A stretch of 64,000 nucleotides of DNA from Halosimplex salinum (GTDB lineage: Archaea > Halobacteriota > Halobacteria > Halobacteriales > Haloarculaceae), in the NCBI RefSeq assembly GCF_003730195.1, contig NZ_QWGG01000002.1, forward strand, positions 579,748 to 643,747. The letters run 5' to 3'. The position numbers and the translations under genes were made by a program. The notes under the pieces are model-generated. The model was not told the DNA's origin and did not search any database. It was given only the letters and a program-made list of their open reading frames with translations. Below, in pieces: positions 38,312 through 60,600 of this stretch; the stretch's first letter is position 1; every line of letters starts with the position of its first letter.

Positions 38312-39784
<1,473 letters not shown>

Positions 39785-39846
39785 ACTGACCGGGATCGGG
39801 GCGACGCCCCGACCCACTTACCTAGCGTCCGTCGGCCGTTCGCAGT

Positions 39847-39876
39847 CCGGGCACCTATGAACTACCAGGGCTAACA
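39847..39876 (+). other. 16S pre-rRNA processing stem, 3' strand (BHB)
   Basis: Complements 38179-38208 as described there, so that the 16S is looped out and excised. The tRNA-Ala gene begins just after it. Confidence 0.9.
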
Positions 39877-39877
39877 C

Positions 39878-39949
39878 GGGCCCATAGCTCAGCGGCAGAG
39901 CGCCGCCTTTGCAAGGCGGAGGCCCTGGGTTCAAATCCCAGTGGGTCCA
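39878..39949 (+). tRNA. tRNA-Ala (TGC)
   Basis: 72 nt. Acceptor gggccca/tgggtcc with discriminator A, D arm tagctcagcggcagagcgcc, anticodon loop with TGC at 39910-39912, T arm gggttcaaatccc. No CCA is encoded. It sits in the 16S-23S spacer, as in most euryarchaeal operons. Confidence 0.97.
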
Positions 39950-40102
39950 TGTCACGTACGGCGATTCGAACCGTGTCCCTTAAGTGGGTCACTGCGTTCG
40001 AGTCTAAGTACGAAGACCGGTGCACCATCCCGTGTGAACGCGGATGGGAAGGGTCGATGCACGCGCCACCTCACCCGTGGGTGTGCAAATGAGACTGTGT
40101 GT

Positions 40103-40134
40103 ACGTGCGATCCAGGCGTCCACTGGACTCGTTC
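40103..40134 (+). other. 23S pre-rRNA processing stem, 5' strand (BHB)
   Basis: Pairs with 43184-43215: acgtgcgatccag with ctggatcgcacgt (13 bp), then gcgt with gcgc (4 bp, one G-U), then ctggactcgttc with gaacgagtccag (12 bp). The two 3-nt bulges are cca at 40120-40122 on this strand and aat at 43200-43202 on the other. Confidence 0.9.
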
Positions 40135-40241
40135 ATCGAGTCCAACGTGACGTAGGAGATCCATCCGATGGATCTCCACACACTCGGAGGTCCTCACTGG
40201 ACCTCCACTTTGAAGGTCCCTCACCGGACCTTCTCCACTAA

Positions 40242-43160
<2,919 letters not shown>

Positions 43161-43183
43161 TACCTACCGCATTGTGACTCGCA

Positions 43184-43215
43184 GAACGAGTCCAGGCGCA
43201 ATCTGGATCGCACGT
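43184..43215 (+). other. 23S pre-rRNA processing stem, 3' strand (BHB)
   Basis: Complements 40103-40134 as described there, closing the loop around the 23S rRNA. Confidence 0.9.
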
Positions 43216-43294
43216 ATACACGGTTTCATAGACCGACCGATAACTGGTGTTCCGAACGTACCGTTCGGACGCGGTTCGATTCCGCGGATCGGCG

Positions 43295-43417
43295 TTAGGG
43301 CGGCCATAGCGGCGGGGTTTACACCCGTACCCATCCCGAACACGGAAGTTAAGCCCGCCTGCGTTTCGGCGAGTACTGGAGTACGAGAGTCTCTGGGAAA
43401 CCTGATTCGCCGCCTCC
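43295..43417 (+). rRNA. 5S ribosomal RNA
   Basis: About 122 nt. Begins ttagggcggccatagcggc and contains cccgtacccatcccgaacac and gttaagcccgcc, ending cgccgcctcc. It is 135 bases after the 23S end. The first base is uncertain by one or two positions because of the extra g in ttaggg. Confidence 0.96.
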
Positions 43418-43586
43418 ACTCATTCCCGGCCACATTCGGCCGGACACACTACCCTCGACGAGCCACAGCGCTCGTCGGGGGGTTTCGTCATTTTGTACGA
43501 AGAGCGACAGCCACGCGGTCGCTACCGTCGCGGACAGGTCGCGAATCCGATGGGCTTAAGCGACACAGGTGGATAGTTTCAGACGC

Positions 43587-43662
43587 GCCAAGGTGGCAGA
43601 GTCCGGCCGAACGCAGCGGCCTGCAGAGCCGCCCATCGCCGGTTCAAATCCGGCCCTTGGCT
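43587..43662 (+). tRNA. tRNA-Cys (GCA)
   Basis: 76 nt. Acceptor gccaagg/ccttggc with discriminator T (U73, the cysteine identity base), anticodon GCA at 43623-43625, T arm ccggttcaaatccgg. No CCA encoded. It ends the rRNA operon, as usual for haloarchaea. Confidence 0.96.
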
Positions 43663-43680
43663 CTCACACGTTACCCTAAA

Positions 43681-44318: not shown

Positions 44319-47300
44319 CTACTCCTCGAATCCGGGGCCAACGGTGAACGAGTCTGGTGCACAGGGCAATTGGTTGTGTTGACACCATTGACAGTGCTCG
44401 CCCGCAGTGTACCGACTGAACGAGAACTCAGCAATGCGGTTCATCGACGTCGTCACGTCATCTCTGACTGCTTCCAGGTCACTATCGCTGAATGTTCGGG
44501 ATTCGACTTTTGGACCGATGTCTCCGACATAGGCGTATCCCGCACGTGCTACAGGCTCATCGTACAGGTCACGGCACGCTAACTGGTAGATCGGGAGTTG
44601 TTTGTCGTCCTGAAGGTCGCGGTGGCGTTCGGTCGCCTTGTAGTCGATGACGACCAGTTCGTCGTCAGGCGTCCGGTAGACGGCGTCAATGTAGCCGACG
44701 AGTTCGTGCCCATCGATATTTAGTTCGAACTCTCGCTCTGCGTCGATGATCTCGTAATTGGGGAGATCTAACTCGAAGTACCGGTCGATGCATTGTTTTG
44801 CCGCCGGGAGCGCGTCCTCAGCGCGGCGCTGACTGGCGAGTCGCTCGCAGATCTCGTACCACTCTTCACGGCGTTTCACGTCTTGCTTCGCGGCTTGCTC
44901 TGCAGTATCGTGGAACAGCAACCCGATCTGACGTTGTGACACCCCTTCCCCGGTATCATTCGTCGTTTCTTGATAGTCGGGGAACGCGTTGACAACGTAG
45001 TCGAGGTAGTGGCTCCGCGGGCATTCCTCGTAGGCTGCCAGCGACGTGTAGCTGTGCGAGAGCGACGGTGACGGTGTCGATGGGCCGGTTAGCGACCTAA
45101 CCTGGAGTGTCTCCCGCCCGGCTCTCGGTGAGAGATTTCCGTTGAGGGTGGCTGTTGCGAGGGCTAGCACGCGGTCGCGCGCCGCATCGACCGCGAGTTC
45201 TTCTCCGTCGTGATTGACGGTACCGCCGATGTGCTCGACAGTCTCGCTTGCCAGCGTGTCGGTCCAGTCTACCGCTTCATCCGGGAGACACTCTTGGATG
45301 TCGGTCCAGAGGGGGAGTTTCCCGCGCTCTGGCTGCCACGGAATGCTGGGGGGTAGGATTTCGTCAACGGCCCTCGAAACCGGGTGTACACTCGTCGAAT
45401 CGTCGTCGTCCTCGCTGCCGCCCTGAAGAACGAGGATGTCTTCGGCGCGTGTGATCCCGACGTGGAACACGCGACGGGTTTCACGGGCGTCACGCTCGAC
45501 GAAGTCCTCGGCGAACGCCGCCTCTGCGCCGTCCGAGAGGCTGGTTTCGAGCGCGTCGTAGGTGCGTGAGCTCGGTGCCCACTCGTCGGCCGTGACTTGC
45601 GGGATGAGAACGACCGGGAAGTCCAGGCCCTTGCTCTTGTGGATGGTCATCACGTTGACCGCGTCGTCGGCGACATCCGGCTGACTCGTCGGTGTCGACC
45701 CGCTCTCGTCGAACAGGGAGTCATAGTGTTCGAGCGAGTCGATGAACTCCGGCGTGAGCGGTGGTTGGACAGCACTGTCCCCGTACTGTTCGATGATGTC
45801 TTCGAGTTGCGCGAGATCGCGGCGCTCCTGTTCGCTGAGGTACCACTCGACGTTCGTGATGTCCGTGAGTTCGCGGTACAGGTGGCTGAGCGACGCCGAA
45901 TCTCGGATATCGAGGAGTTCCGTGACGTGTTCGCGGGCCTCTGCGACGCGGTCGGGCTCCTCGAACTCTTCGAGCGGCGTCTCGCGGAGTGTGTCTACGA
46001 GCAGCTCGTCGCCTGCATTGAGTGTGCGGAGATCCGCATCGCAGAGCCGGTACCGCATTAGGAGGACGCGGTTCCAGCTCACCTCGTCTTCGGGGCGTGC
46101 AAGCGCTTTCAGGTAGGCGGTCACGGTGCCGACGCCGACTGATTCCGTGGCCAAATCGCCGGCAACCTGGTACGGGATGCCGGCGTCCTCGAATTCCTCG
46201 ATGACTGGCGTCGCGTGGTCGTTCTTCCGGACGAGTAGCGCGATGTCACCTGGGTCGTACGCCTTATCGAGGTTCCCTGCTGCCCCGCTTAGCAAATTTT
46301 GGACGACGGTGCGAAGTTGGATAGCACCGTCTGCATCGTCCTCGTCCGGGAGTTCGACGGTAGCGACAGTATCTCCGTCGTACGCGGGTTCGTCGACGCG
46401 TTTCAGTGTCTTGTGTCGTTCGCGGTGGTCAAGTTTCTGAATCGCCTCGTTCGCCAGGTCGAGAATCGGCTGCCGGGAGCGGAAGTTCTCCTCTAATGGT
46501 TCATCTTCGAGCGCGGCGAACGCGCGGTCGAGTTCATCGGTGATGTTGGCGACGTGTGCGCCGCGCCACTCGTAAATCGCCTGATCGTCGTCGCCGACGA
46601 CGAACAGGTTGTCGTCGGTGACGAGTGACGTGACGAGGTCGAACTGGAGGCGGTCGGTGTCCTGAAACTCGTCACAGAACACGTAGTCCCACCGCTCAGC
46701 GATTTCCTCGCCGACCGGCGACTCCATCAGTGCGGCCGTCTCCACGACAAGACCGTCAAAGTCGATGAGGTTCCGTTCGTCGAGTTCACGCTCGTACGCT
46801 GCGTACCCCGCCGTCAGGTCACGGGCCGTGAGACAGTCCGAGAGGAACGAGTCGAGATGATCTGTGAGTTCGAGGTCCAGATCTTCCGGGATGCCTGTCG
46901 GCGCACCACTCGCGTATCCACCGAGCAGGTATTTCGGGAGCTTGTACGCGTTGTCCGGCAACTCCTGGCCACCTGCCTCGTGAGCTTCGAATGCCGTTTC
47001 CAGCTCGTCGCAAAGATCCACGAGGCGGTCGAGGAAGTCGCGTGCGCTGGCTTCGATACCGTCCGTCCCGAGCGCGTCGCGTTCAGCGACGAGGTCGGCT
47101 CGCGCGTCTGGGAGCGAGTCAAGGACGCTCGACACGGACCGGCCGCCTAGATGGTCGCTGGCAATAGCCTCGACGCGCTCCGAGAGGTCAGCGACTTCGT
47201 AGACGCGGTCAGCAGGCCCGAGGAAGGCGTCGATTTCGTCGGGCGTGATGCCGCTGCGCTTCATCGACCCGATGAAGTTGAGCAGCTTCGACGCGGCCCC

Positions 47301-47774
47301 TGACGCGTACCCGTCGCTCCCGTATACGTTGGGTTTCACAGACCGGTACTCGATGTCGTCCAGGACGTCCAGCACGATGGCGTACTTCTCGGCGTCCGTG
47401 GCGACCTCGAAGTCCGGATCGATCCCGGCTTCGTACGCGTAGTCGGTGAGTATCTCGTTACAGATCGAGTGGTACGTGTACGCGTCGATGTCGTACCCGG
47501 CCGTGCCGAGTTTCGCATTGAGCTTCTCCCGCATCGAGTCCGCGGCATTGTTCGTGAACGTCAACGCGAGAATCCGGTCCGGGGACACGTCCTCCTCATC
47601 GATGAGGTACTCGATCTTCCGCACCATCGTGAACGTCTTCCCCGTCCCCGCACCGGCGAGCACACGCATCGGGTACGCATTGGAGTCGATGATCGCTCGC
47701 TGTTGAGGCTCTGGAGACACGTCCTCCTCCGGAACCGGGAACCAGGACGGGTAGTCATCACCGTCGTCGCTCAT
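44319..47774 (-). CDS. AddA/UvrD-like helicase with C-terminal RecB-family Fe-S nuclease, 1151 aa
   Basis: The frame begins at 47807, but the ATG at 47774 overlaps the upstream stop (ATGA) and is preferred. The UvrD-type helicase has Walker A LAGAGTGKTFT (residues ~39-49), VFCDEFQDTDRLQ (motif II), VVGDDDQAIYEWRGA (III), and VMTIHKSKGLDFPVVL (V). The C-terminal ~170 residues form a PD-(D/E)XK domain (HELVGYIDAVYRTPDDELVVIDYKAT). Cysteines in YEECPRS and HCQWCQHNQLPC (C1128, C1131, C1138) suggest a 4Fe-4S cluster. It looks like a complete AddA-type DNA-end processing motor and is the last gene of the Argonaute operon. Confidence 0.9.
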   Translation of the reverse strand: MSDDGDDYPSWFPVPEEDVSPEPQQRAIIDSNAYPMRVLAGAGTGKTFTMVRKIEYLIDEEDVSPDRILALTFTNNAADSMREKLNAKLGTAGYDIDAYTYHSICNEILTDYAYEAGIDPDFEVATDAEKYAIVLDVLDDIEYRSVKPNVYGSDGYASGAASKLLNFIGSMKRSGITPDEIDAFLGPADRVYEVADLSERVEAIASDHLGGRSVSSVLDSLPDARADLVAERDALGTDGIEASARDFLDRLVDLCDELETAFEAHEAGGQELPDNAYKLPKYLLGGYASGAPTGIPEDLDLELTDHLDSFLSDCLTARDLTAGYAAYERELDERNLIDFDGLVVETAALMESPVGEEIAERWDYVFCDEFQDTDRLQFDLVTSLVTDDNLFVVGDDDQAIYEWRGAHVANITDELDRAFAALEDEPLEENFRSRQPILDLANEAIQKLDHRERHKTLKRVDEPAYDGDTVATVELPDEDDADGAIQLRTVVQNLLSGAAGNLDKAYDPGDIALLVRKNDHATPVIEEFEDAGIPYQVAGDLATESVGVGTVTAYLKALARPEDEVSWNRVLLMRYRLCDADLRTLNAGDELLVDTLRETPLEEFEEPDRVAEAREHVTELLDIRDSASLSHLYRELTDITNVEWYLSEQERRDLAQLEDIIEQYGDSAVQPPLTPEFIDSLEHYDSLFDESGSTPTSQPDVADDAVNVMTIHKSKGLDFPVVLIPQVTADEWAPSSRTYDALETSLSDGAEAAFAEDFVERDARETRRVFHVGITRAEDILVLQGGSEDDDDSTSVHPVSRAVDEILPPSIPWQPERGKLPLWTDIQECLPDEAVDWTDTLASETVEHIGGTVNHDGEELAVDAARDRVLALATATLNGNLSPRAGRETLQVRSLTGPSTPSPSLSHSYTSLAAYEECPRSHYLDYVVNAFPDYQETTNDTGEGVSQRQIGLLFHDTAEQAAKQDVKRREEWYEICERLASQRRAEDALPAAKQCIDRYFELDLPNYEIIDAEREFELNIDGHELVGYIDAVYRTPDDELVVIDYKATERHRDLQDDKQLPIYQLACRDLYDEPVARAGYAYVGDIGPKVESRTFSDSDLEAVRDDVTTSMNRIAEFSFSRYTAGEHCQWCQHNQLPCAPDSFTVGPGFEE

Positions 47775-48676
47775 CGTCGCACCTCCGTCGACAGGCGATC
47801 CGCACACATCTCGCGATAGTCACAGTCCGGGCACGCCTCCTCGTTGAGGAGATTGAACGGTTCTGGCTCGTGGGCTCCGTTCGTGATCCCGTCGTGCGCG
47901 GCGCGAATGAGCCCCCAGATCGTCTCGTAGTGGTCTTGGTAGATCTCCGTCGTCTCCCGTGGCCACCCGCGTGCAGACACGTCGTATCCAGACGGTGTGC
48001 TCTCGAACGACGTTTTGTTGAGGAGGCCGTAGAAACTGAACCTGACCTCCATCCCGTCCTCGTAGAACGGTTCGTTCTTCACGCCCTCGATGTACGTCGC
48101 CGTCTGGAACGCGTTCCGCACACGCTTCGGCTCGTGCGCCTCCCCGTCGAGGTGGTCGCCAATGTACTCGGCTGTCCCGTCAGAGAGCATCCCATGTGTT
48201 TTCCGCTTGTAATCGACGATGTGGAGGCCCTCGTCCGTCCGGATGACGTTGTCTGCTTTCCCGTGAAGCCCTCGCCCATCTACTTCACATTCTACCCAGC
48301 ACTCGGTTGTGATTGAGCGACGGGCGTGGTCGATGCCGACCCCGCTGTCAGGATCGAAGAACGACTCGATGGCGGCCAGGTTCTCAGCGCGCTGGTACTC
48401 CCGATGTGCTCGTGATTCGTAGTCGTCCGCGCTGCTGTGTTCGTCCCACTTCGCAGCGAAAATCCGCATCGCCCGGTCGTGAATCACCTCCGGGGGATCG
48501 TCGCGGTCGGTCTCATCACATGTGTCTTCGATAGTCTCGTGGTAAATCGTTCCTTGGTTGAGGTAGAGTTCAGTCCTGTCCGGCGCGTTCACGTCCTGTA
48601 CGTACCGGTAATCGTACAGTCGTGGACACGTCGCGTAGTTCGCCAGCCGCGACGGTGAAAGCGACTCCTGGCTCAT
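47771..48676 (-). CDS. Cas4/AddB-type Fe-S exonuclease, 301 aa
   Basis: A stand-alone RecB-family nuclease. The N-terminal cysteine is C17 (YATCPRLYDYRYV), the active-site pattern is HGKADNVIRTDEGLHIVDYKRKT (D then D-x-K), and the C-terminal cysteines are C282, C285 and C291 (CPDCDYREMC), giving C-xn-C-x2-C-x5-C of Cas4 and AddB. It lies next to an AddB-like protein that lacks its nuclease domain, so it is probably that missing piece as a separate chain. ATGA overlaps connect it to the genes on both sides (47771-47774, 48673-48676). Confidence 0.88.
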   Translation of the reverse strand: MSQESLSPSRLANYATCPRLYDYRYVQDVNAPDRTELYLNQGTIYHETIEDTCDETDRDDPPEVIHDRAMRIFAAKWDEHSSADDYESRAHREYQRAENLAAIESFFDPDSGVGIDHARRSITTECWVECEVDGRGLHGKADNVIRTDEGLHIVDYKRKTHGMLSDGTAEYIGDHLDGEAHEPKRVRNAFQTATYIEGVKNEPFYEDGMEVRFSFYGLLNKTSFESTPSGYDVSARGWPRETTEIYQDHYETIWGLIRAAHDGITNGAHEPEPFNLLNEEACPDCDYREMCADRLSTEVRR

Positions 48677-50733
48677 CGCCGCACCTCTCCGTTAGCGAAC
48701 TCGACACGTGCACGCAACGCCTTCCGGAGTTCCTCACCCCGCGCCCCGCTCTTATCGAGCAGATCCTGAACCTCCCCGAGTTCCGCTTCCAGGTCGTCGA
48801 GCGACACCGTCACGTCTCGGCTGTTGGCGCGGCGCACCTCCGCGAGGGCGTCGTCGACGCGCGACAACAGGAAGTCCTCCGCTGCTTGCTCGCTCGTGAT
48901 ATGTGGGTCGTCAGCTTCGGTGACCCACGACAGGCGGTTATACACTTCTGTGAGGAACCGTGACGCCTGCGCACGCTCTTCCAACGCGGTGTCCTCGTAC
49001 TCGTAGAGACAACAGTACAGGTGCTCGTCCGCAGCGCCAGCCCCAACCGCCAGGCGTCGCCGTGCGTGCTCGGTGTGGTACCGCGCGAACGGCCGACTCG
49101 ACGCCGTGGACGTCGTCGGAAATGTCGCATCCACGTCCGGCTCGTGGAGTTCCGTGACACCGGGGTAGTCCGGCATCGATGCGACCCGCTCGGTCGGGAA
49201 CAACCGCGTCAGGAACGGGTCGCCTGGATACTCGCCATCGACGAGATTCACGAGAAAGACCGCGCGGAAGGACTCGTTCTTGATCGCTTGCAAGTGGTCG
49301 ACGCGGACACCGTCGTCAAGGTCCGTCGCACTGGTCTGGTTTTGTTGTGGTGCGTACTCGTGAGCGCGTTCGAGCATATCCTCGAAGGACTCCCACGTCG
49401 CATCCACGAACTCGGTCTCTTCGAGGAACTCAGCCATTCGGAACGCCCGCCGCACGTTCCCGAACTGCGCCCGTGCATCTAACGGAGTCGAGCGCTCTGC
49501 AATTCGCTCTTTCAATCCCGAGTCTGTTGCCCACCAGCGGACCGCATCTTCGAGGCTGTAAATATCGCTGACACGGTCTAAGCGCTCTGTATCGAGTTCC
49601 GGGCCACGGTCGGGTACCTCATCCTCCTCATCTGCGGCAAGATGTCGAACGACAGCGAGGAGTTCTCGAATCGCGGGGTCGTCACCGAACCCAGTGACGG
49701 TCGTCGATTCCGCCGGAATTCCGGTTCGTTCGAGCACTTCGATGGTGTCCGTAACAGTACTCCCACTTTGCTTCGTAGCAACAGCGATATTACCGTAATT
49801 CCAGTTTGGCTGCGCGACGAGTTCTTCGATCTCGTTGGCAACCTCGGCGAGTTGCTCGTCACTGGAGTCTGTAGCAAGGATCGAGACCGACCCTGCTTCC
49901 GGGTCTACCGGAACCGTTTCTTCGGCGAAATACGCTGCTGTGGCAGCCGGTCGCGTCGACGGTGCCTCCGATGCCCCGCAACGAGACTCGCTGAACGAGA
50001 CATAATCCGTGACTGGCCCAGACTCGACCCACGTACGGCGCACACTCGCGTTCTCTTCGGCGATACAGACGAGGTCGCAGTCGCCTGCGAGCGCGTCGAG
50101 ATACGCGCGGTCAAGTGGGAAGAACTCCTCAAACTCGACTGCGAGCACCGCCTCGAAATCGACGACATCATCGCGGGCATCCCCTGAAAGGACATCGAGC
50201 GCTTCCGAGATGAGTTGCCCGCGTTCCATGTGGTCGTGCTCGGCCAGCCACTCGTGGAATGCGTCGAGCGCAGCCGTGATATCGCGGAGTTCCGGGGTTT
50301 CCTCGGGCGTAATCGTCTGCCAGGAGAGCGTACCCATCACGGCGTCCACGTCCTTGATGAACGACGGCTGGTCAGACGCCCGCTGGAGGTACTCCGTTTC
50401 CCACTCGTAGTCTGCGAGGAATCGGTGAAGGAGCTCTCGCCGTAGCGCGTCGGAGAGAATGACACGGTCATCGGTTTGATTGAGAACATCGGTCGCGTGC
50501 ACCACGAGCGACGTCACGTACGGCGTTGCCGCACCAGGCAACTCCGTACCCAAGGCTCCCCGGAACGTGTCCGTACTCGTCGGTGCACCCGTGACGACGA
50601 GCACATCCTCAGAATCGTGCTCGTCGAGGAGCGTCCGGTATTCGTCCCGCGCTGTTCGTTCGACGTTTTCGCCCCCGAACGGTGCCGTGACTAACGTCCC
50701 GTCGAATTGCCGGTGAGATGCGTGGTCAGACAT
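48673..50733 (-). CDS. AddB-like inactivated helicase subunit, 686 aa
   Basis: Has the outline of AddB/RexB proteins: N-terminal LVTAPFGGENVE and VLVVTGAPTSTDT (a Walker-A-like loop with no Lys-Thr/Ser, so not an ATPase), a Rossmann-like DFEAVLAVEFEEFFPLDRAYLDAL, and VSILATDSSDEQLAEVANEIEELV..GNIAVATK (UvrD motif IV-like), then VDHLQAIKNESFRAVFLVNLVDGEYPG (V-like). The usual C-terminal nuclease is absent; the following gene encodes it as a separate protein. It should partner the AddA-like helicase. It starts 5 bases after the PLD-ATPase stop. Confidence 0.75.
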   Translation of the reverse strand: MSDHASHRQFDGTLVTAPFGGENVERTARDEYRTLLDEHDSEDVLVVTGAPTSTDTFRGALGTELPGAATPYVTSLVVHATDVLNQTDDRVILSDALRRELLHRFLADYEWETEYLQRASDQPSFIKDVDAVMGTLSWQTITPEETPELRDITAALDAFHEWLAEHDHMERGQLISEALDVLSGDARDDVVDFEAVLAVEFEEFFPLDRAYLDALAGDCDLVCIAEENASVRRTWVESGPVTDYVSFSESRCGASEAPSTRPAATAAYFAEETVPVDPEAGSVSILATDSSDEQLAEVANEIEELVAQPNWNYGNIAVATKQSGSTVTDTIEVLERTGIPAESTTVTGFGDDPAIRELLAVVRHLAADEEDEVPDRGPELDTERLDRVSDIYSLEDAVRWWATDSGLKERIAERSTPLDARAQFGNVRRAFRMAEFLEETEFVDATWESFEDMLERAHEYAPQQNQTSATDLDDGVRVDHLQAIKNESFRAVFLVNLVDGEYPGDPFLTRLFPTERVASMPDYPGVTELHEPDVDATFPTTSTASSRPFARYHTEHARRRLAVGAGAADEHLYCCLYEYEDTALEERAQASRFLTEVYNRLSWVTEADDPHITSEQAAEDFLLSRVDDALAEVRRANSRDVTVSLDDLEAELGEVQDLLDKSGARGEELRKALRARVEFANGEVRR

Positions 50734-50738
50734 GGCTG

Positions 50739-52859
50739 TTACCCTCGGACGAGCCGCGTGACCCGAGACAGAACACCGGTGTTGTCAGCCGCTGTTTCAG
50801 TGTCGCGTCGTGCATCTTCGATGATACTGGGCTCATCTATCCAATTCTGGAACCTGTTTGCGCTTTCAAACTGGACCGCCGGCCCGTAAATATTGGCCCG
50901 GATGTGGGCTGGCGTGGCCTTCTGGAACTCCCAGCACTGCTGCTGATCCAGATTCGCGGAGAAATCAGCGATAACACGCCCGTCGTCCTTGAAATCGAGT
51001 TCACACAGCCCGTCGGACAGTGCACTGATCCACTTCCGTCGTCCCGGGTCGTGTTCCTGCTCGGCGGGTTTCTCCAGCGGCACGTACTCCGGTGGTTCCT
51101 TCTCGGCATACGCGTACAGCTCCGCGAACACGTCCCGAGCATCCGCGAGCCGATCGGACTGGTCTGGAAGCGAGATATCCCGTTGCAAGAACAGGTGGGC
51201 GAACCACGGAAACAAGTTACAGCTGTCCGCCTGGCCCGCGATCTGCGCGGCGGCTTCCCGTTCGTCCTTCTCCAGTTCGGAGAAGTTGACGTTGAAATCC
51301 AGCGTCTTCATCCGGGTCCGGAGTTCGGATTTGGGTTTCGTCGAGTCGTTCGAGGAGAAGATGAACGTCGGCATCTGGATGGAGCCGTCCCACTTCCCCT
51401 CCCAGTACGACTTGATGATGTCCCGGTCGATCTTCGACTTCGCCACGTCGTCGACGATGTACGGGAAAACAGTGTCCGACGCACGAGCACGCTCGATGTT
51501 GTTTTTGACGAAATCATCACCGGTCGTGACCTCCTGCACGTACCCGTTCGAGATGAGCCGCGCCCCGAACCGCAGGAACATACCCTTCCCGCTGTCGTTG
51601 TCGCCGTGAAGGAACAGGAACGGCAGGTCCTTGTCTAGCTCCGCAGATTCGTATTCGGCGTAGTGGTGGGCGCAGTAGTTAGCGAACGGAGCCCAGCAGA
51701 AGTAGATAACACCCTCATAGAAGTGCGCCCGCGTTTCCTTCGTCGTTCGCGTTTCGCCGAACTCGCCGACCGTTTCGACGTACTGCTCGATCAGGTCAAG
51801 CGCGTCGGCGACTTCCTGCGGGTCATCCGGAAGAGGGGCTGTTAATTCGAGGACGGAGTCATCAACCCGAAGCCCGACCGTCTTCTCTTCCTTTTCGACA
51901 TTGAGGTCGGGGTATCCGGTGAACGTCTCTTTGTACCGTGCGATACCAGCGGGTGTCGCCACGATTTCACCGTCGTTGATACGGATGTTATTGGCGGATA
52001 GCGTGTCGTCCAGATTCGAGATGGCGTCTTCGAGACCTTGCGGGGAGAGGCGCACACGCTTTTCCGGACTGATCTCTGTTGGGTCGGTATCCGTATCTTC
52101 GGCGGAGAACACCGCTTTCTCTGCTTCTTCAGCGTCGGTGACGACGTTGTACGTATTGACTTGGTCGTCGTCAACCGCTTCGTCGAGCCGGGCGTTCAGC
52201 TCGGCGACCGGGTCGTCACTGAACTCGTCTCCGCCCAGCCAGATGTCGTAGATCTTCGCCTCTTCTTCTGCCGTGTCGGCGTCCTCGATCTCCTCGGTGA
52301 GGTCTTCCATGAACGGCGTCGCGTAGTCCTTGTGGAACGCGTAGAGTCGTTCGAACCACTCGTCAACTGGCGTGTCGCCGTCGGTACGCCAGGCCATGTT
52401 GACGTTGGTTTGTTTGCTCCCCTGCCAGGCCTGCTTGGAGAGATTCGCCGACCCACAGATGAGTGTACGAGACCCGTCCTGATTCTCGACGATGTAGAGC
52501 TTCGTGTGGAGGAGGACACGCGCGGAATCTACGGTGTGAATGAGGAGATCACCGTCTCGCCGCAGCGACTCCAGTTGCGCGGCGATTTTCTTTGCGTTGT
52601 TCGTGTTCTTCAGCGACCGTCGGTAATCGTCGTGCTGGTTGTCCCCGACGATTACCTCCAGAGAATCCACCGCGAGGTCCCGGTTCTGAAACATCTTGTA
52701 GATGAACGCCGGGGACTGACTGTACGTGACGCAGTAGACGTGCTGGGCGTCACCGAAGTAGTTCAGAAAACTGTCCCATGATTTGTCAGCAGCCATCTCC
52801 AGGTCGGCGGCGCTGCCGTCATCGAACTCGACTGTTGCTTCGAATTCAGTCTTGGTCAT
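50739..52859 (-). CDS. PLD-family nuclease fused to an AAA-type (SF3-like) ATPase, 706 aa
   Basis: Residues ~1-200 look like a phospholipase-D nuclease: VYCVTYSQSP, VIVGDNQHDD, and the HKD-type motif HTKLYIVENQDG (H118, K120) followed by GSANLSKQ (136-143); the aspartate of HxKx4D is replaced by Glu. Only one HKD motif is seen, so a dimer is likely. A linker (200-370) precedes an ATPase: Walker A GDNDSGKG (419-426), Walker B FPYIVDDV (465-472), sensor FSSND (501-505) and arginines at 514-516, resembling phage-type helicases. No family name is certain. It lies 63 bases downstream of the Argonaute gene and should act with it. Confidence 0.85.
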   Translation of the reverse strand: MTKTEFEATVEFDDGSAADLEMAADKSWDSFLNYFGDAQHVYCVTYSQSPAFIYKMFQNRDLAVDSLEVIVGDNQHDDYRRSLKNTNNAKKIAAQLESLRRDGDLLIHTVDSARVLLHTKLYIVENQDGSRTLICGSANLSKQAWQGSKQTNVNMAWRTDGDTPVDEWFERLYAFHKDYATPFMEDLTEEIEDADTAEEEAKIYDIWLGGDEFSDDPVAELNARLDEAVDDDQVNTYNVVTDAEEAEKAVFSAEDTDTDPTEISPEKRVRLSPQGLEDAISNLDDTLSANNIRINDGEIVATPAGIARYKETFTGYPDLNVEKEEKTVGLRVDDSVLELTAPLPDDPQEVADALDLIEQYVETVGEFGETRTTKETRAHFYEGVIYFCWAPFANYCAHHYAEYESAELDKDLPFLFLHGDNDSGKGMFLRFGARLISNGYVQEVTTGDDFVKNNIERARASDTVFPYIVDDVAKSKIDRDIIKSYWEGKWDGSIQMPTFIFSSNDSTKPKSELRTRMKTLDFNVNFSELEKDEREAAAQIAGQADSCNLFPWFAHLFLQRDISLPDQSDRLADARDVFAELYAYAEKEPPEYVPLEKPAEQEHDPGRRKWISALSDGLCELDFKDDGRVIADFSANLDQQQCWEFQKATPAHIRANIYGPAVQFESANRFQNWIDEPSIIEDARRDTETAADNTGVLSRVTRLVRG

Positions 52860-52922
52860 ACGAGGGTTACCGGTTTGTTGACGGGTGTGTGAGTGGTTGC
52901 GTGGATCTGTACTGGCGCATGG

Positions 52923-55610
52923 TCAGATGTACGGGACACCGCGGATGACGCTCCCCTTGGTGAGGTAGCCCTTCATGGCGAAGTCGGCGCACTTGTCGGC
53001 GTAGTACGTGGTGATGGGAAGCCGGGTGGACCGGCTCAGCGACCCGACGTGCGATTCAGACAGCCAGTAGGTTTGTTCCGCGAGCGTGTCGAGGTCTGTC
53101 GATCCGTGGCGTTTCACGATCTGCAGCGGCCGCGGCGTACCAGGACTGCCCTCCTTCCCACCGGTCGTGGTCAGGTAGGAGTGGTCGCCGTTGTGGACGT
53201 GGAAGGCGACGCCTTTGTCCGCGATATCGAACCGTGATTTCGACTCGTCGTACTCGGCGATACGGGGGTTCCCGGATTTCCGGATCTCGATGAGATCGAA
53301 CCGCTGGATGAGATCCCGGGCTTTGTCGAGACGGTTGATGAGGCTCTCGACGTCGAGGTAGAACTTCCCGTCCCGATGGATGACCACGTGCCGCGGCGGT
53401 CGGCCTTCCTCTTCGGCGAAGATTTCCAGGACGTGCTTGATGACGTTCGCTACGTCGTCCTCGTCGAACGTCTCGCCAGCCTGCTTCGTGACAGCCTCCG
53501 ACGCGAGGATGGTTCCGTCGGCCATGATGACGTTCGCAGCCGCGCCGAGGTGTTGCTTGGTCGCGTGGTCGTACGTCACGTCGAGACCGACGAACGCGTC
53601 AACGTCCCCAGGGACGTCGTCGATTCGCCACGGCACGCCGCCCGCTTTCCCGATGAGGGACGAGCAGATGTTCCCGCGGTAGTTGCCGTTGCCGAGATTG
53701 TCGACGGAGATCATCTGACTCGGCACGCCGAGTTGGCCGAGCCGCCGCTTGAACTCGGGATACGGGTCATCGTAGTCCGCTGCCGCAGCCTCATCTGCAT
53801 CCGGCACGACGATCAGTGCCGCATCGTAGTCACTCGCTTTCTGCGCGTGCTGGGAGTAGTGGAACTCCGAGCCCAGTTCATACGTCTCTTCGTCGAATGC
53901 AGTCGGACTCGCGCCGTAGTCTGCAAGTTTATTGAGCAGCGTGAGGACATACCGGTGAGCCGGATCTTTCTCTTCCTCGGGATACAGCGCGATGATGTCG
54001 AACGGCTCTGGGGGCTTGTACACGTCGTACCCCTTTCGTTCGAGTCCACCGGCACCGTAGAACCCGGTCTGTCCACCCCCGAATCGAAGATTCGGCCGGT
54101 TCCGTATCTGGTGTTCTCGGTACCCGGCGTTCGTGGGTTGCGGGACGGGGTCGAAGCCGAAGTACGGGGTCGGGCCGAGCAGGTCGACGAACGACGTGAC
54201 GACGTTGAATCGTTCCTCGGGTTTCATCCGGCTCTCGTTGTGGATGACGTTCAGGAACGCGTCATCGACGCGCCCCAACTGGTCGAACGTCGGGATGACC
54301 TTGCAGTACGCCAGGAGCTGCGGGAAGATCGAATCCTCGTCGCTCCCGTACTGCAGATCAGCAATGATCGGGTCGCCGGCCCGCATCGAATCGATGACGT
54401 CCTGGTCGACGTGCTTCTCGTGGTACTCCGACATCGGGACGCCCGGTCCGTCCAGCACATCATCGTAGTCCATGTCGATGATCTCCTTGACCGTCGCCGT
54501 GCGCGCACTGTCGTACAGGTCCGTGTCGTGCTCGACGGTCACCTCGGCGATGTCGTGTCCGCGTTGCACCCACTCGGCGGCGGAGAACGTCGATTCTAGA
54601 TGGTACGCGACGTTCACGCCGCAAATCACGGTCCCGTCAGCATCGACGCGAATCCGACACTTGTACTTCCGATAGGCTTCGAACAACCCGCTGTTCGCGG
54701 TCCGCTGCGGGGTGGGCTCGATGATCGAATCGATCCCGGACACCTCGAAGCGACCAGCGACGGCTCGCTTCACGTCCTGCTTAACGAACTCCTGGAGTGG
54801 TCCGTCGTCCGTGTACGAGCGCGCTTCCAGTGTCGTCTCGCCCTGGTGCACTGGCTTGACGGTGTACCCGTGAATCGAGATCGTACCGTGGAGTTTCTCG
54901 GTCGCGTAGATACGCCGCCGGGACGCATCGGCCGTCGTCACGGGACTCCCGGTCCGTGACTGGTAGTAGTTCGCCGCTTTCGCCGTGAACCCCTCAATCC
55001 CGTTCGTGAAATCGTCAGGGTCAATTCCGCCACTCCCGGTCGCCCGGAGTTCGTACTCGTGGACCGGTAGCTCCGGCAGCGACCCGAGTTCGAACTGCAG
55101 CAAGTAATTCCCGTCTGAGAGCGGCTGTTGATGTAGGAGCTCGCCGCCACCATCAGCTGTCGGCCGCGAACTACCATCGACCTCGCTTCCGCGAACGAAT
55201 TCCTCGTGATCGGACGCATCCGATGTCGCCGCGGCAGCATCACTCGAACCCCTCTCCCCTGACTGCCCGACCGGTTCTTCCGAGGGTACACTACCGGGTG
55301 ACTCGTCGTTCCCGGCAGCTGCGGGAGGGTCGTCTAACAGCGTGACGGTGAGATCATACCCCGGATTGAGTTGCATCTCACCCCGGAACTCGTTCCCGAC
55401 GACGTTCTCCAGGAGATACCACTCCCCGATCTCCCACTCGAAGTCCGCGACGTCGCTGTTGTGGAATACTGTCAGATCTACCGCTGCGCCGTCGACGTCC
55501 TCCAGATGGATTTTCCGAGCGATGGCATCGTGCTCCCACTCGTCAATCCCCGTGACGCGCAGCGCGATGTCGATCTCTTCCCCATCCTCGATATCGGCCT
55601 TGACTGCCAT
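52923..55610 (-). CDS. ago: Long Argonaute of the NgAgo type, 895 aa, with N-terminal OB-fold
   Basis: The C-terminal ~240 residues form a PIWI domain with the complete DEDD-type catalytic set: Asp677 (VGLDVTYD), Glu713 (QAGETFDED), Asp747 (VIHRDGKF) and Asp872 (TTYYADKC). The end PITTYYADKCADFAMKGYL closely resembles the end of Natronobacterium gregoryi Argonaute (887 aa). Residues ~1-95 form an OB-fold (single-stranded-DNA-binding-like: IDIALRVTGIDEWE..HLEDVDGAAVDLTVF), then an acidic linker, N, PAZ-like, MID (SQMISVDNLGNGNYRGNICSSLIGK) and PIWI. It should be a guided DNA nuclease. A TATA box at 55635-55642 lies about 28 bases upstream of the ATG. Confidence 0.95.
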   Translation of the reverse strand: MAVKADIEDGEEIDIALRVTGIDEWEHDAIARKIHLEDVDGAAVDLTVFHNSDVADFEWEIGEWYLLENVVGNEFRGEMQLNPGYDLTVTLLDDPPAAAGNDESPGSVPSEEPVGQSGERGSSDAAAATSDASDHEEFVRGSEVDGSSRPTADGGGELLHQQPLSDGNYLLQFELGSLPELPVHEYELRATGSGGIDPDDFTNGIEGFTAKAANYYQSRTGSPVTTADASRRRIYATEKLHGTISIHGYTVKPVHQGETTLEARSYTDDGPLQEFVKQDVKRAVAGRFEVSGIDSIIEPTPQRTANSGLFEAYRKYKCRIRVDADGTVICGVNVAYHLESTFSAAEWVQRGHDIAEVTVEHDTDLYDSARTATVKEIIDMDYDDVLDGPGVPMSEYHEKHVDQDVIDSMRAGDPIIADLQYGSDEDSIFPQLLAYCKVIPTFDQLGRVDDAFLNVIHNESRMKPEERFNVVTSFVDLLGPTPYFGFDPVPQPTNAGYREHQIRNRPNLRFGGGQTGFYGAGGLERKGYDVYKPPEPFDIIALYPEEEKDPAHRYVLTLLNKLADYGASPTAFDEETYELGSEFHYSQHAQKASDYDAALIVVPDADEAAAADYDDPYPEFKRRLGQLGVPSQMISVDNLGNGNYRGNICSSLIGKAGGVPWRIDDVPGDVDAFVGLDVTYDHATKQHLGAAANVIMADGTILASEAVTKQAGETFDEDDVANVIKHVLEIFAEEEGRPPRHVVIHRDGKFYLDVESLINRLDKARDLIQRFDLIEIRKSGNPRIAEYDESKSRFDIADKGVAFHVHNGDHSYLTTTGGKEGSPGTPRPLQIVKRHGSTDLDTLAEQTYWLSESHVGSLSRSTRLPITTYYADKCADFAMKGYLTKGSVIRGVPYI

Positions 55611-55634: not shown

Positions 55635-55642
55635 AATAAATA
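55635..55642 (-). promoter_or_regulatory. TATA box for the Argonaute operon
   Basis: Reads tatttatt on the minus strand, about 28 bases before the ATG at 55610, so the transcript is probably leaderless. Probably drives all five genes of the operon. Confidence 0.5.
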
Positions 55643-55834
55643 GCTTTCCACTAGATGAATCTCAAACACGGTAAATAAGCGATAGCGTAAATCAACTCCA
55701 ATAAAGCGCCTCATCGCGTCAATGAGGTACTTCAGAGGTAGTATCGAACGACACCGAGAGTCGATAATCTGCTACACTGGGCCTGAGAGACGGCAGAACC
55801 ATAGTAGAATCTGAATAACGACATTGAGATGCGT

Positions 55835-55867: not shown

Positions 55868-57544
55868 ATGCTTGGGACAGGGAGCGCAGAAGAGTTCATC
55901 GACGACGCCGAACACCACAACCAGTGGTGGAGTGACGGCACCTCTCCAGAACTCTCACAAGCCACAGAACTTACTCCTCGATCTGATTTCCACCGCGTTC
56001 TTAAAACGACGAACACCCACTACGCTGACGGCGTCGAGAGCCTCGTCTACGCAATTCACGGCCAGACCGGCATCGGCAAAACCACCCTTCTCCACCAACT
56101 CGTCGCAGCACTCCTCAACACAACAGACCTCCCGCACGAAAACACAGACCTCGAACTCACCTCCGCAATCGAACCGCGGCAAATACTCTACATCCCCTTA
56201 GAAGACTCCCTATACCAGCTCGAACGCGCAGGCGACGGCATCAAACGTCTCAGCCAGGTCATCGACTACTTCCAGACGCACGTCGCACCCCGTCAAGGAG
56301 AAAAATTCATCCTCCTCGACGATGTCCAAGCCCTTGACCTCAATGAGGATCGGAAAGCGGAGCTACTCGACCTCGTCGACGAGAACACGTACGTATTCCT
56401 GACCGGCATCGTCGAATCTCAAGTCGATCTCTCCACTACCAAATCCACCGACGACGTCGAGGAATTCGAACTGTGGCCGATCCTCCCGATGAAATTCATC
56501 GACACCGTTCAAATCGGCGCAGGCCTCGGAGTCGATTTCGATGACGAATTCCGAACCCGACTTCAACAGTACCAATCATCAGACTTAGACGGCCCATCGC
56601 CGATCAAGACGATTCGAACTGGGCTGTCCGGAAGAGATTCCGAAACCAGTCTCGACACCGCAGTTGAGACACTCTCAGAACTCTGCTTCGGCATCTTCGA
56701 CGCGGACGACCGCGATAATCTTCACGACGCCGCGCGCGCATACCTGCGCATGGGCGGCACTCTCCATCAGACAGACGACCTAACGATCCGGAACGAACTC
56801 TCCAAATCTCACTTCCTACTCTTCCTCTATAAAGAGCTCGCCAAGTACCGGTCCATCCAACAACCCGAAAACCTCCACCGCCTCAGCGCTATCGCTGCCA
56901 CCAACGCCGGTGAAGAACTCCAGTACACAGCCCTCAGCGACCAGATCGGCGTCGACAGGCGAACCGTCGATAGCTACCTCGATGTTCTTGATGAGGGGAT
57001 CGCTGTCACTGAATCGCACGACTACTCCCTGCGACGCTACCGCCGCACCCGCCTGTATCTCCGCAATCCACGTCACCTCGTGCTCCTCTCCCAACGACAG
57101 GAACACCACGGCTTCGAAGGCTACCAACGGCAAGACACGCTAAACCACGAATTCGAGTACAAACTCGCCCGCACCGTCGCCTTCGACCACGCCAAACGCC
57201 TTGCATACACCGTCGGAGCATACGACGTCGAATACACAGAAACCGAATCCGGCCTCATTGACTATATCCTCCACCGCAACGGACACGTCCTCCCCTTCAT
57301 CCTCTCCTACCATCCACACACTGGTAACGCCAAAACAATCGCCGAAGACTTCGACCCTGACTCCGGCCAGCATACCGAAGCCGACAGTGAAGAACTCCGA
57401 GAATTAGACTACCAGGCACCGTACCGGTTCATCATCACCGACAGCCTGTCAAAGCAAGTCAGAGAGGACGAATCATTGATTGTTGAGAACGGTGACACCA
57501 ATATTTGCTATCTGCCATATTGGTTGTTCTTGCTCATCTGTTGA
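55868..57544 (+). CDS. AAA ATPase with C-terminal DUF4143-like region (AAA_14 type), 558 aa
   Basis: Walker A is GQTGIGKTT (residues 65-73), Walker B is FILLDDVQ (147-154). The central part has LTGIVESQVDLS with a P-loop fold, and a winged-helix-like stretch follows (YTALSDQIGVDRRTVDSYLDVLDEGIAV). The C-terminal part (about 440-520) resembles the DUF4143 PD-(D/E)XK-type fold (HEFEYKLARTVAFDHAKRL, then SGLIDYILHRNGHVLPFILSYHP), though the key ExK is not clear. Such ATPases are common in archaeal defence islands. The codons are more AT-rich than the chromosome left of the rRNA operon. It is divergent from ago and 113 bases upstream of the sacsin-like gene. Confidence 0.8.
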   Translation: MLGTGSAEEFIDDAEHHNQWWSDGTSPELSQATELTPRSDFHRVLKTTNTHYADGVESLVYAIHGQTGIGKTTLLHQLVAALLNTTDLPHENTDLELTSAIEPRQILYIPLEDSLYQLERAGDGIKRLSQVIDYFQTHVAPRQGEKFILLDDVQALDLNEDRKAELLDLVDENTYVFLTGIVESQVDLSTTKSTDDVEEFELWPILPMKFIDTVQIGAGLGVDFDDEFRTRLQQYQSSDLDGPSPIKTIRTGLSGRDSETSLDTAVETLSELCFGIFDADDRDNLHDAARAYLRMGGTLHQTDDLTIRNELSKSHFLLFLYKELAKYRSIQQPENLHRLSAIAATNAGEELQYTALSDQIGVDRRTVDSYLDVLDEGIAVTESHDYSLRRYRRTRLYLRNPRHLVLLSQRQEHHGFEGYQRQDTLNHEFEYKLARTVAFDHAKRLAYTVGAYDVEYTETESGLIDYILHRNGHVLPFILSYHPHTGNAKTIAEDFDPDSGQHTEADSEELRELDYQAPYRFIITDSLSKQVREDESLIVENGDTNICYLPYWLFLLIC

Positions 57545-57657: not shown

Positions 57658-60600
57658 ATGTCACAGGCTCGCACAACAGACGAATTACTGACCGAGATCC
57701 GGGGGGAATGCCTCGGTGCATACCGAAGTCAACCAGGTCGGATTGACGGGGATATCGGGAACGAGTCTGAGAATCAAAGTAACTACCACGGCCGGTTTAT
57801 CTACGAATTAGTTCAGAACGCTGATGACGTCTTAGACGACCGGGAAAACCAGCGGGCTAGGTTTGAGTTGCACGATGATCGATTATACATGGCTCATACA
57901 GGCGCACCGTTTACTGAGGAGAACGTTAGAGCACTGTGTATCCTCGGGAAGAGCTCAAAGAGCGACGAGTACGCAACTATTGGACAGAAAGGACGAGGTT
58001 TCACGTCCGTCTTAGAAGTCACGAATTCCCCAGCAGCGTACTCCACGACGTACGACTTCCAGTTTGATAGGCAAACTGCGTACGAGACAATATGCTCTGA
58101 GTTGGAATTAGATCGTTCATTAAAGCCAAGTGACATACCCGTACTAACTATACCCTTTCTCCCTGATGATCGCCCTCCGCGTGTACAGGAACTCTTAGCT
58201 GATGAATCACCGTTCACAACGGTGTTCGAATTTGAACTACGGGATGGGCGCTACGAGACGATCAAACAGCGTCTAGCTGATCTTAATCCCCAAATCATGC
58301 TCTTCCTTCGGAATTTGGAGCAGCTGGAAATCGTAATTGACGGAGATGAGTTAGTTTGGGAATTGAGCCGGTCCTCAATCGATGCGGATCTGGATAAGAA
58401 CGTCACGAGCTCAAAAATCGACATAAGCTGTGATGGGACCCGTGCAGAGTGGGGTCCCGATGCGGAACAGCACCGCTACATCAAATTTCGCAAGGCAGAA
58501 ATTCCGGTCACGCATCGAGAAGGACTCGAAGGACCTCATTGGGAGTCCGTTGAATTCACAGAAATCGGTGTAGCGCTTCGGTATGAAGAACGGAAGGACA
58601 AAGTGCATCTCCAACCGTTCGACACAGCTCCAAACATCCACTTGTTTCTACCCACAGAAGAACCAAGCCCGTTCCCGCTGCTGATCAATGGAGCATTCAA
58701 GCCTGATAGTTCACGGACCGGGATTCCTGTCGTAGACGAGCAAGATGGATACAACGCGTTTCTACTGGACGAGCTCGCGGAATTAATCGCGTCAGACGTA
58801 CTTGAGTACGCAACGGGCACTGGGACAACAGTCGATGAGTTCCTTTCATGTATCCAGTATCACAACGACGCGCTGTCTCGTGATGCGCCGGCGTACCTCG
58901 CCTCAGCACTTGCAGATGAGTTTTGGGAGACACGCTTTCTCCCAGTTGTTGACGACGAGCTAGCGTGTCGAGTGTCAGAGGACAGGTATTCGCCCTCAGA
59001 ACTGATTCTCCCGTACTCACACGAGAACGCCCGCTGGATCGGGTCTGAGATTGCGTCCCTCTATGGCGGTGGTGAAGTCCCAAACGAAATCGATCCGCAA
59101 ACAAGGCGCTTCCCAGCAGTAGCTCTCCTTGAAGACGCCAGTATTCACACGCTTCAATCACTCGGGGTTGAAAGCCTGAACGCCGACGAAGTACCGTTGG
59201 TACTTGCTGCAGCGCCTGCCATGCGGACCACGATTCGATCGTTTGACCATGTCGGGTTTCGCCGCAAAGTTGATCCGGTATTGTACGTTCTCACCGGCAT
59301 TGAGTCCGTCGCCAGTGATACCGAAGTCAGGGATCGGTTCCTTGAAGCCTGTATAGAGGAACCCGTCTTCCCGGTCTCGGTAACTGACGATGGTCAAATC
59401 AACCGCGTTTCAACCAAGTCCGTTAACTTACTCTTCCCGCCAGAAAACTTCGAGCTTCAGGTCGAGCTGACCGGAGTTCAGTTCCTCGCCCCACAAATCT
59501 ATCGTCCAGAGGGATGGACTCGTCCTCGTGGTGAACACGGAGACACCGATGACTTCCAATCGGAACTGGCCTCAATCTGGAGTATCGAAACGTTCGATTT
59601 CCAGTCGTTCGCACAGGCGGTCATTCTTCCACGACTTCCCCGAAGCAGAATACCGGTCGGTGATATTTCTGACCTGAAATCAATCTCGCAACTTCGTGTC
59701 CTACGGGAACTTGCCGGGGAGACAGTGAAACCCTCGAATCCGCTCGTCCACGAACCTCGGAAGGAAGAGGAGCTATACCGGCTCTGTATGCTCCCAGTCC
59801 CGACCAAGAACCACGGGTGGGAGCCGGCTTACAAAGTTTACTTCGGCGAGGACTGGTTTGATGAGTCATTCCCAGATTGGGCATCGCCACTTCCTGTTCT
59901 CGATGCAGCGCGCGATGTAGACCCACCAGTTCTAGCCGCACCCGAAGTACTCCTCACGGACGCGGAACTCGATGCGGAGGCTGAGGCGACAGGGACGGAC
60001 GAGGAAACGACTGTTCGTGACGCGTGGTTCTCCTTCTTCCAGTGGCTCGGGGTTACACCGCACCTACGACTCACGCCGCTATTCAATCCTGAAGAAGAAC
60101 GTGAATACGGGGCGACAGCCGATCTCGGCCGTCCTTCAGAAAAACATCCAACGTTAGGTGCACTCCATCAGTCAACGTGGGATCGCTTCCGGGAGCAACT
60201 GCAAAAGGCCGTCGACGACAGCACTGCTAGTGACCGAAACAACCTGTCAATTTACCGTGCCAACCGCTTGGAGTTCTGGCCGGCAATCCGCGATGCTGCC
60301 GAGGCCGATGAAACCGTTGCTATTCGATTGTTCTGCCATCTCGCATACTGGTGGGAGATGCGGTACAGTGAGGCGACAGCTGTCGGTGTCGGCGGTCACT
60401 CTGTCAGTGCTAATCAGGTCGCCAGTCGAAACAAGGGGGTCCCCAACTCGACCGAACGCTACCCCCTCGGACGAAATCTCTGGTTATGGGAACTCCGAGA
60501 AACCGATTGGTGCCCCTCTATCCACGGCCAGTACAAGCCACCGCGAGTCTGGCAGCGAACCGGTTCGCTAATCGAGCAGTTCACGATTGACCAGCAGGGG

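Follow-up and report, generated by a model that had tools for sequence, protein, structure and literature searches.

The window analysed here is a stretch of 64,000 nt from Halosimplex salinum (GCF_003730195.1, NZ_QWGG01000002.1, 579,748..643,747, forward strand), and on its minus strand, at 44319..55610, lies a run of five genes that an earlier note on this DNA had described, all of them intact and positioned as it reported. The run opens with a long-A type Argonaute (Ago) of 895 amino acids (52923..55610; Pfam Piwi 4.6e-20, PADLOC pAgo 1081.6 bits), whose catalytic residues D677, E713, D747 and D872 are invariant in the 16 Agos aligned. Its N-terminus (residues 6-83; 55362..55595, minus strand) harbors an OB-like domain that matches NCBIfam PRK07217 (replication factor A) at 1.8e-4, under the family cut-off; OB folds have been reported in eight pAgos (PMC6299218). 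The second gene (50739..52859; Pfam PLDc_2) encodes a 706-aa fusion of a PLD nuclease and a P-loop ATPase. This protein, which the earlier note proposed might translocate along the target or cut it, is a relative of AgaP, the PLD protein that together with a long-A pAgo makes up the APAP system of Natrinema pellirubrum, where AgaP was shown to act as an effector that is toxic and restricts plasmids (PMC11442185). The remaining three genes, referred to below as the trio, encode an AddB-like helicase-type body of 686 aa that lacks both a nuclease and a Walker A motif (48673..50733), a Cas4/RecB-like PD-(D/E)XK nuclease of 301 aa (47771..48676; Pfam PDDEXK_1 1.1e-22), and an AddA-like protein combining a UvrD helicase with a PD-(D/E)XK nuclease (44319..47807; Pfam UvrD-helicase 4e-61, PDDEXK_1 3.5e-26), which comprises 1162 aa from a GTG start and 1151 aa if it begins with the ATG at 47774.

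Divergent from ago, an AAA_14/DUF4143 ATPase gene occupies 55868..57544 on the plus strand. It is found 255-260 bp off ago in all 14 loci with an intact ago, its relatives also adjoin other Agos and Ago-less trios, and it is likely an accessory member of the system. Upon alignment of the 14 ago/AAA_14 intergenic regions, a conserved BRE/TATA-like block (55635..55650, minus strand) was recognized by eye about 30 bp upstream of ago, where it would be suited to serve as a promoter. Only 63 bp separate ago from the PLD gene, a gap in which inspection by eye revealed no TATA-like box, and only 5 bp separate the PLD gene from the AddB-like gene. Together with the near-constant spacing across loci, these features support the operon-like layout that had been proposed.

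A complete rRNA operon (16S, tRNA-Ala, 23S, 5S and tRNA-Cys) was identified at 38312-43663, with the Ago operon directly behind it in lower-GC DNA; the end of the window is also the end of the contig. The low-GC stretch at 38-44 kb was considered as part of an island and rejected, being the rRNA operon itself. Past the AAA_14 gene, at 57658-62448, the window encodes a TmtA-like sacsin/NOV_C protein, which at that position in other loci has relatives of between 27% and 89% identity or gives way to other genes.

The trio resembles a split AddAB enzyme

We next consider what the trio encodes. In the predicted model of the AddB-like protein, UvrD-family chains outranked AddB by Z score (28.1 versus 24.1), with matches covering residues 9-611 and 11-679, respectively. 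Neither NCBIfam equivalog cut-off was reached (addA_Gpos, 133 of 708 bits; addB_Gpos, 13 of 904 bits), and a PDB sequence search returned nothing useful for the AddB-like or the PLD protein. The Cas4-like protein has cysteines in a 1+3 arrangement (C17, C282, C285 and C291) and is likely the detached nuclease of AddB; its key residues are invariant in 33 of 33 sequences, as are those of the AddA-like protein in 34 of 34. By sequence and predicted fold, then, the trio is an AddAB-like end processor whose AddB is split in two. As for the PLD protein, its PLD half, as modeled, matched SauUSI, NgoAVII and Nuc, and its ATPase half gave AAA+ matches that were weak.

The five-gene order is conserved among haloarchaea

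The window-type Ago was found in 16 of 391 genomes of the haloarchaeal class, spanning six families (f1, f2, f3, f4, f6 and f7). Fourteen copies are intact, the window included, the other 13 being 84-96% identical to the window Ago, and two are broken (genomes G318 and G290). The AddB/Cas4/AddA-like trio lies behind the Ago in 16 of 16, at nearly fixed spacing, counting genome G262, in which the locus falls on two contigs that both end inside the PLD gene. The conserved gene order predicted by the earlier note was thus recovered across families, and the possibility that it is a one-off was rejected.

A second scan, of named genomes, yielded 25 loci, among which N. gregoryi is absent; 11 have an Ago of at least 79% identity. 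Eight of these 11 were already in the genome set, including those of Natribaculum breve, Halocatena pleomorpha, Haloferax profundi, Halorussus marinus, Halogeometricum limi and Halostella pelagica, and three are additional. All five genes are present in two of the three, Halosimplex pelagicum and Natronomonas gomsonensis; two named loci beyond the 16 genomes, L197 and L202, keep the five-gene order. A plasmid of Salinigranum marinum likewise has the five genes annotated, ordered as in the window. At L199 (YIM A00013) an intact Ago, 79% identical, stands alone: the PLD gene, the trio and AAA_14 were not found within 10 kb of it.

Median dN/dS values were 0.12 for Ago, 0.05 for PLD, 0.13 for AddB, 0.12 for the Cas4-like gene and 0.09 for AddA, indicating that all five genes are under purifying selection. 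The PLD gene of Halocatena pleomorpha (L032) is missing its central part, with the HKD motif, as well as its end, and the Ago and trio frames are open. Conversely, in the two loci with a broken ago (L044 in G318 and L047 in G290) the PLD and trio frames are still open, which is unexpected if this PLD protein, like AgaP, is toxic without its Ago.

The trio also occurs without the Argonaute

Among the matches listed for the 391 genomes, 36 AddB-like genes are at least 75% identical to that of the window; 16 lie beside a window-type Ago and 20 do not. Three of the 20 unlinked trios have another pAgo within 10 kb, namely a distant long Ago (L142), a broken short Ago (L144) and a 471-aa short Ago (L148). 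The 12-20 kb stretches of the remaining 17 yielded no Ago-like ORF with profile E-values up to 0.01. L144 and L148 each combine a close trio, a TmtA-like gene of 1645 aa and a short pAgo in one stretch, and in L144 the TmtA-like gene is placed between the trio and the broken short pAgo.

Directly before AddB, five of the 20 unlinked trios (L132, L133, L135, L136 and L137) retain a stump of the PLD gene's 3' end, and L132 additionally keeps a stump of the AAA_14 gene, showing that Ago and PLD were lost and the trio retained. In a quick AddB tree comprising 34 of the 36 rows (two were left out), linked and unlinked copies are mixed, requiring at least nine changes, counted irrespective of direction. 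The dN/dS of unlinked trios equals that of linked ones. That 20 of the 36 listed close trios have no window-type Ago and yet show unchanged dN/dS indicates that the trio serves a function apart from this Ago, and guide making therefore cannot be its sole task. The earlier note had depicted the operon as self-contained; given these trios, and an Ago with neither PLD nor trio at L199, a strictly self-contained system was rejected, the trio being separable from the Ago-PLD pair.

More distant relatives of the trio were found in further contexts. In two Halosimplex loci (L201 and L203), a trio at 58-68% identity is followed by an oppositely oriented OB-type gene and then by Ago and PLD; the Agos are diverged (49-52% identity to the window Ago), that of L203 being read in two frames. 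Eight loci (L151-L158; AddB 61-62%) have the trio with AAA_14, and a window-like Ago was not found in the stretch. Six of these (L151, L152, L153, L154, L156 and L158) carry a PLD protein 80-81% identical to the toxic AgaP, again with no window-like Ago in the stretch. In L152, an OB-type gene beside trio and PLD has an N-terminus 32% identical over 98 aa to that of the window Ago, and the centre of the OB-type gene is weakly like a PolB exonuclease (0.004-0.005, under cut-off). An island of Halarchaeum acidiphilum (L214) combines an Ago read in two frames with an AddB/Cas4-like pair at 76-79%, a TmtA-like gene and genes resembling HerA-NurA-Rad50-Mre11.

Other haloarchaeal Argonautes lie beside other end processors

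Using profiles built from the genes described above, we scanned 60 Ago loci together with the window and kept 51, dropping ten rows without a 600-aa Ago frame (L044, L047, L057 and L184-L190). An end-processing set was found within 10 kb in 35 of the 51 intact Ago loci: the trio in 13 loci and L033, a fused AddAB-type pair in six, Rad50 with HerA-NurA in seven, Mre11-Rad50 with an Hrq1-like helicase in four, Mre11-Rad50 in two and L045, and a metallophosphatase with AAA_27 in one (L054). L033, whose PLD gene is interrupted by a contig break, and L045, where the contig ends within Mre11, were placed among the positives by hand, and L054 was labelled by hand. Left uncounted were a HerA match of 57 bits in L038, a Rad50 match of 48 bits in L062, a stray AddA ORF in L041, and trios about 8.8 and 9.5 kb off in L051 and L067, which lie beyond the examined stretch; Hrq1 with RNH alone (four loci) was not taken as an end processor. 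Twelve of the 51 loci, including that of NpAgo, an Ago that has been tested, showed no end processor and no Hrq1-RNH pair.

Since the quick Ago tree carried long-branch warnings (L183 has a very long branch), we give independent acquisitions as identity clusters. With a cluster scored positive if any member has a set, 13 of 19 clusters were positive at 70% identity (in two of them through a single member, L054 or L172), 15 of 25 at 85% and 7 of 10 at 50%. In 24 of 51 loci, which belong to 8 of the 19 clusters, the set and ago share one same-strand run. The clearest swap is L052, where a divergent AAA_14 gene is followed by Ago-PLD-Mre11-Rad50, Mre11-Rad50 replacing the trio. As a control, none of 20 HsdR windows (one spanning only 13.4 kb) matched the same profiles at 60 bits, and the positive controls did. 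By coordinates, at least one of the 69 HsdR genes is closer than 10 kb to an AddB or AddB2 gene and another is 10.5 kb away, a lower bound drawn from 76 AddB rows of genomes up to G190. The occurrence of other Agos beside other end processors makes the need for one look general. The fused AddAB pair is present in 59 of 302 genomes, in most cases at a distance from Ago. NurA relatives occur in 295 of 302 genomes, with a copy near seven Ago loci, and HerA-NurA was accordingly rejected as notable by mere presence.

Several other neighbourhoods were observed in this survey. An Hrq1-like DEAD/MZB helicase with an RNase_H_2/HHH protein recurs near Ago (L055, L057, L065, L066, L067, L178 and L180-L182). 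In L174 and L176 a long Ago lies beside a DUF2797-type gene, the gene sizes of L174 recurring unchanged but in mirror order in L176, and L174 also has a DrmE (DISARM) gene next door. At L057:9001-11520 the Ago frame is split by one stop codon into pieces of 262 and 577 aa, and the Mre11-Rad50 frames are open.

Discussion

The origin of the guides of DNA-guided Argonautes is an open question, and an end processor encoded in the same operon makes the guide link directly testable. The reading that we favour, tentatively, is that the window holds an APAP-like Ago-PLD cluster with an AddAB-like end processor of its own, which likely opens and cuts invader DNA from the ends and would hand single-stranded DNA to Ago. 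The ago, PLD and trio genes would be expressed on one transcript, and the AddB-like, Cas4-like and AddA-like proteins would assemble into a single complex, equipped with one motor and two nucleases, that acts on invader DNA when it is linear or broken. The resulting fragments could become Ago guides, the OB domain possibly receiving the single strands; Ago and the PLD enzyme would then cut matching DNA and so create new ends for the trio, closing a loop. The trio may also be able to act alone.

The earlier note took RecBCD/AddAB activity to be a source of guides for some bacterial Agos; in E. coli RecBCD is reported to alter pAgo guide patterns, and yet guide biogenesis can proceed without it (PMC10269773). 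Guide supply by the trio would fit our data, and we favour it modestly because Ago bears an OB domain and because other Agos have resection-type machines next to them; degradation downstream of Ago would fit nearly as well and is a close rival. In that account Ago and the PLD protein would choose and cut the invader and the trio would degrade it from the new ends, with guides coming from elsewhere. AddAB-type enzymes degrade linear DNA, and the trio follows Ago and PLD in gene order and is elsewhere kept alone. The dispensability of RecBCD for guides in E. coli (PMC10269773) points the same way; the OB domain on Ago is left unexplained, the sequence evidence otherwise fitting equally, and we give this account an appreciable but smaller chance.

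It is unlikely, in our judgement, that the trio is an independent module, serving defence or repair by itself and having no more in common with Ago and PLD than a transcript and an island. The unlinked trios with their similar dN/dS, the mixing of linked and unlinked copies on the quick tree of 34 of 36 rows (at least nine changes), the five PLD stumps that tell of a lost Ago-PLD and a retained trio, and the trios near TmtA-like genes and short pAgos all speak for it, whereas the presence of the trio with all 16 window-type Agos, 5 bp from the PLD gene, the near-zero HsdR controls (0/20 windows; at least 1/69 genes) and the uptake of other end processors by other Ago clades argue against it. 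What survives of the proposed Ago-trio system is that the trio belongs with the window-type Ago (16/16), though not to it alone (20 of the 36 listed are unlinked). Its presence beside the diverged Ago-PLD of L201 and L203 supports the link; the lone Ago of L199, the unlinked trios, the retention of PLD and trio beside a broken ago in G318 and G290, the Ago loci without an end processor and the fused AddAB pairs, most of them remote from Ago, count against it. A host role, in which the operon would aid chromosome repair or the completion of replication rather than defence, could be argued from TtAgo and cyanobacterial pAgos, which help finish replication, and from the co-precipitation of AddAB with TtAgo (PMC10269773); with a patchy distribution (16/391 genomes), a plasmid copy, and restriction and methylase genes nearby, we consider it very improbable.

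An AddAB-like end processor is fixed within the Ago gene run, and different machines fill its place beside other Agos. More broadly, haloarchaeal Agos could be DNA-interference systems of modular build whose operons encode their own guide factory, analogous for DNA to Dicer, a role in which any of several unrelated machines (split AddAB, fused AddAB, Mre11-Rad50 or HerA-NurA) would do; this wider proposition we regard as doubtful. We found no description of this operon or of end-processor interchange in the open-access literature, a search that left subscription journals mostly and preprints wholly outside. Genes of pAgo operons are known to include UvrD-helicase/PD-(D/E)XK, Cas4 and PLD proteins (Ryazansky et al. 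2018, PMC6299218); that survey gives no consensus operon for such pAgos, and its main text contains no mention of Mre11, Rad50 or NurA.

Compared with AddAB/RecBCD, the trio shares a UvrD-type motor with a C-terminal nuclease (the AddA-like protein), a partner predicted by its fold to be a motor-dead AddB type, and two nuclease domains with Cys ligands. It differs in being encoded together with Ago, and in that the AddB body (686 aa) and its nuclease (301 aa) are separate, overlapping genes; as they are not one chain, we term the trio AddAB-like.

The likeness to APAP lies in a long-A pAgo with a complete DEDX tetrad, followed 63 bp downstream by the gene of a full-length AgaP homologue (32% identity over 702 aa to N. 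pellirubrum AgaP) that shares its catalytic residues. The NpAgo-AgaP pair corresponds to locus L049 on plasmid pNATPE02, whose PLD protein we recognized as AgaP through the published residues H105/K107 and G157/S158/N160. The HxK and GSxN half-motifs are about 50 residues apart in AgaP (H105, G157) and 18 in the window protein (H118, G136), which lacks the insert that AgaP has between them; since its spacing departs from that of AgaP, we call the window system APAP-like rather than a member of APAP. The five motif residues are invariant in 19 aligned PLD relatives, with or without the insert, which supports the assignment of the remote GSxN (PMC11442185). Finally, L049 has no AddAB unit in 22.5 kb and instead a ResIII/DEAD helicase; a helicase gene near some ago-agaP operons is the one such neighbour mentioned in the published account of them (PMC11442185). 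As NpAgo lacks an end processor, APAP evidently functions without one. The known kind here is thus the APAP-like Ago-PLD pair, and what is new is the AddAB-like unit added to it.
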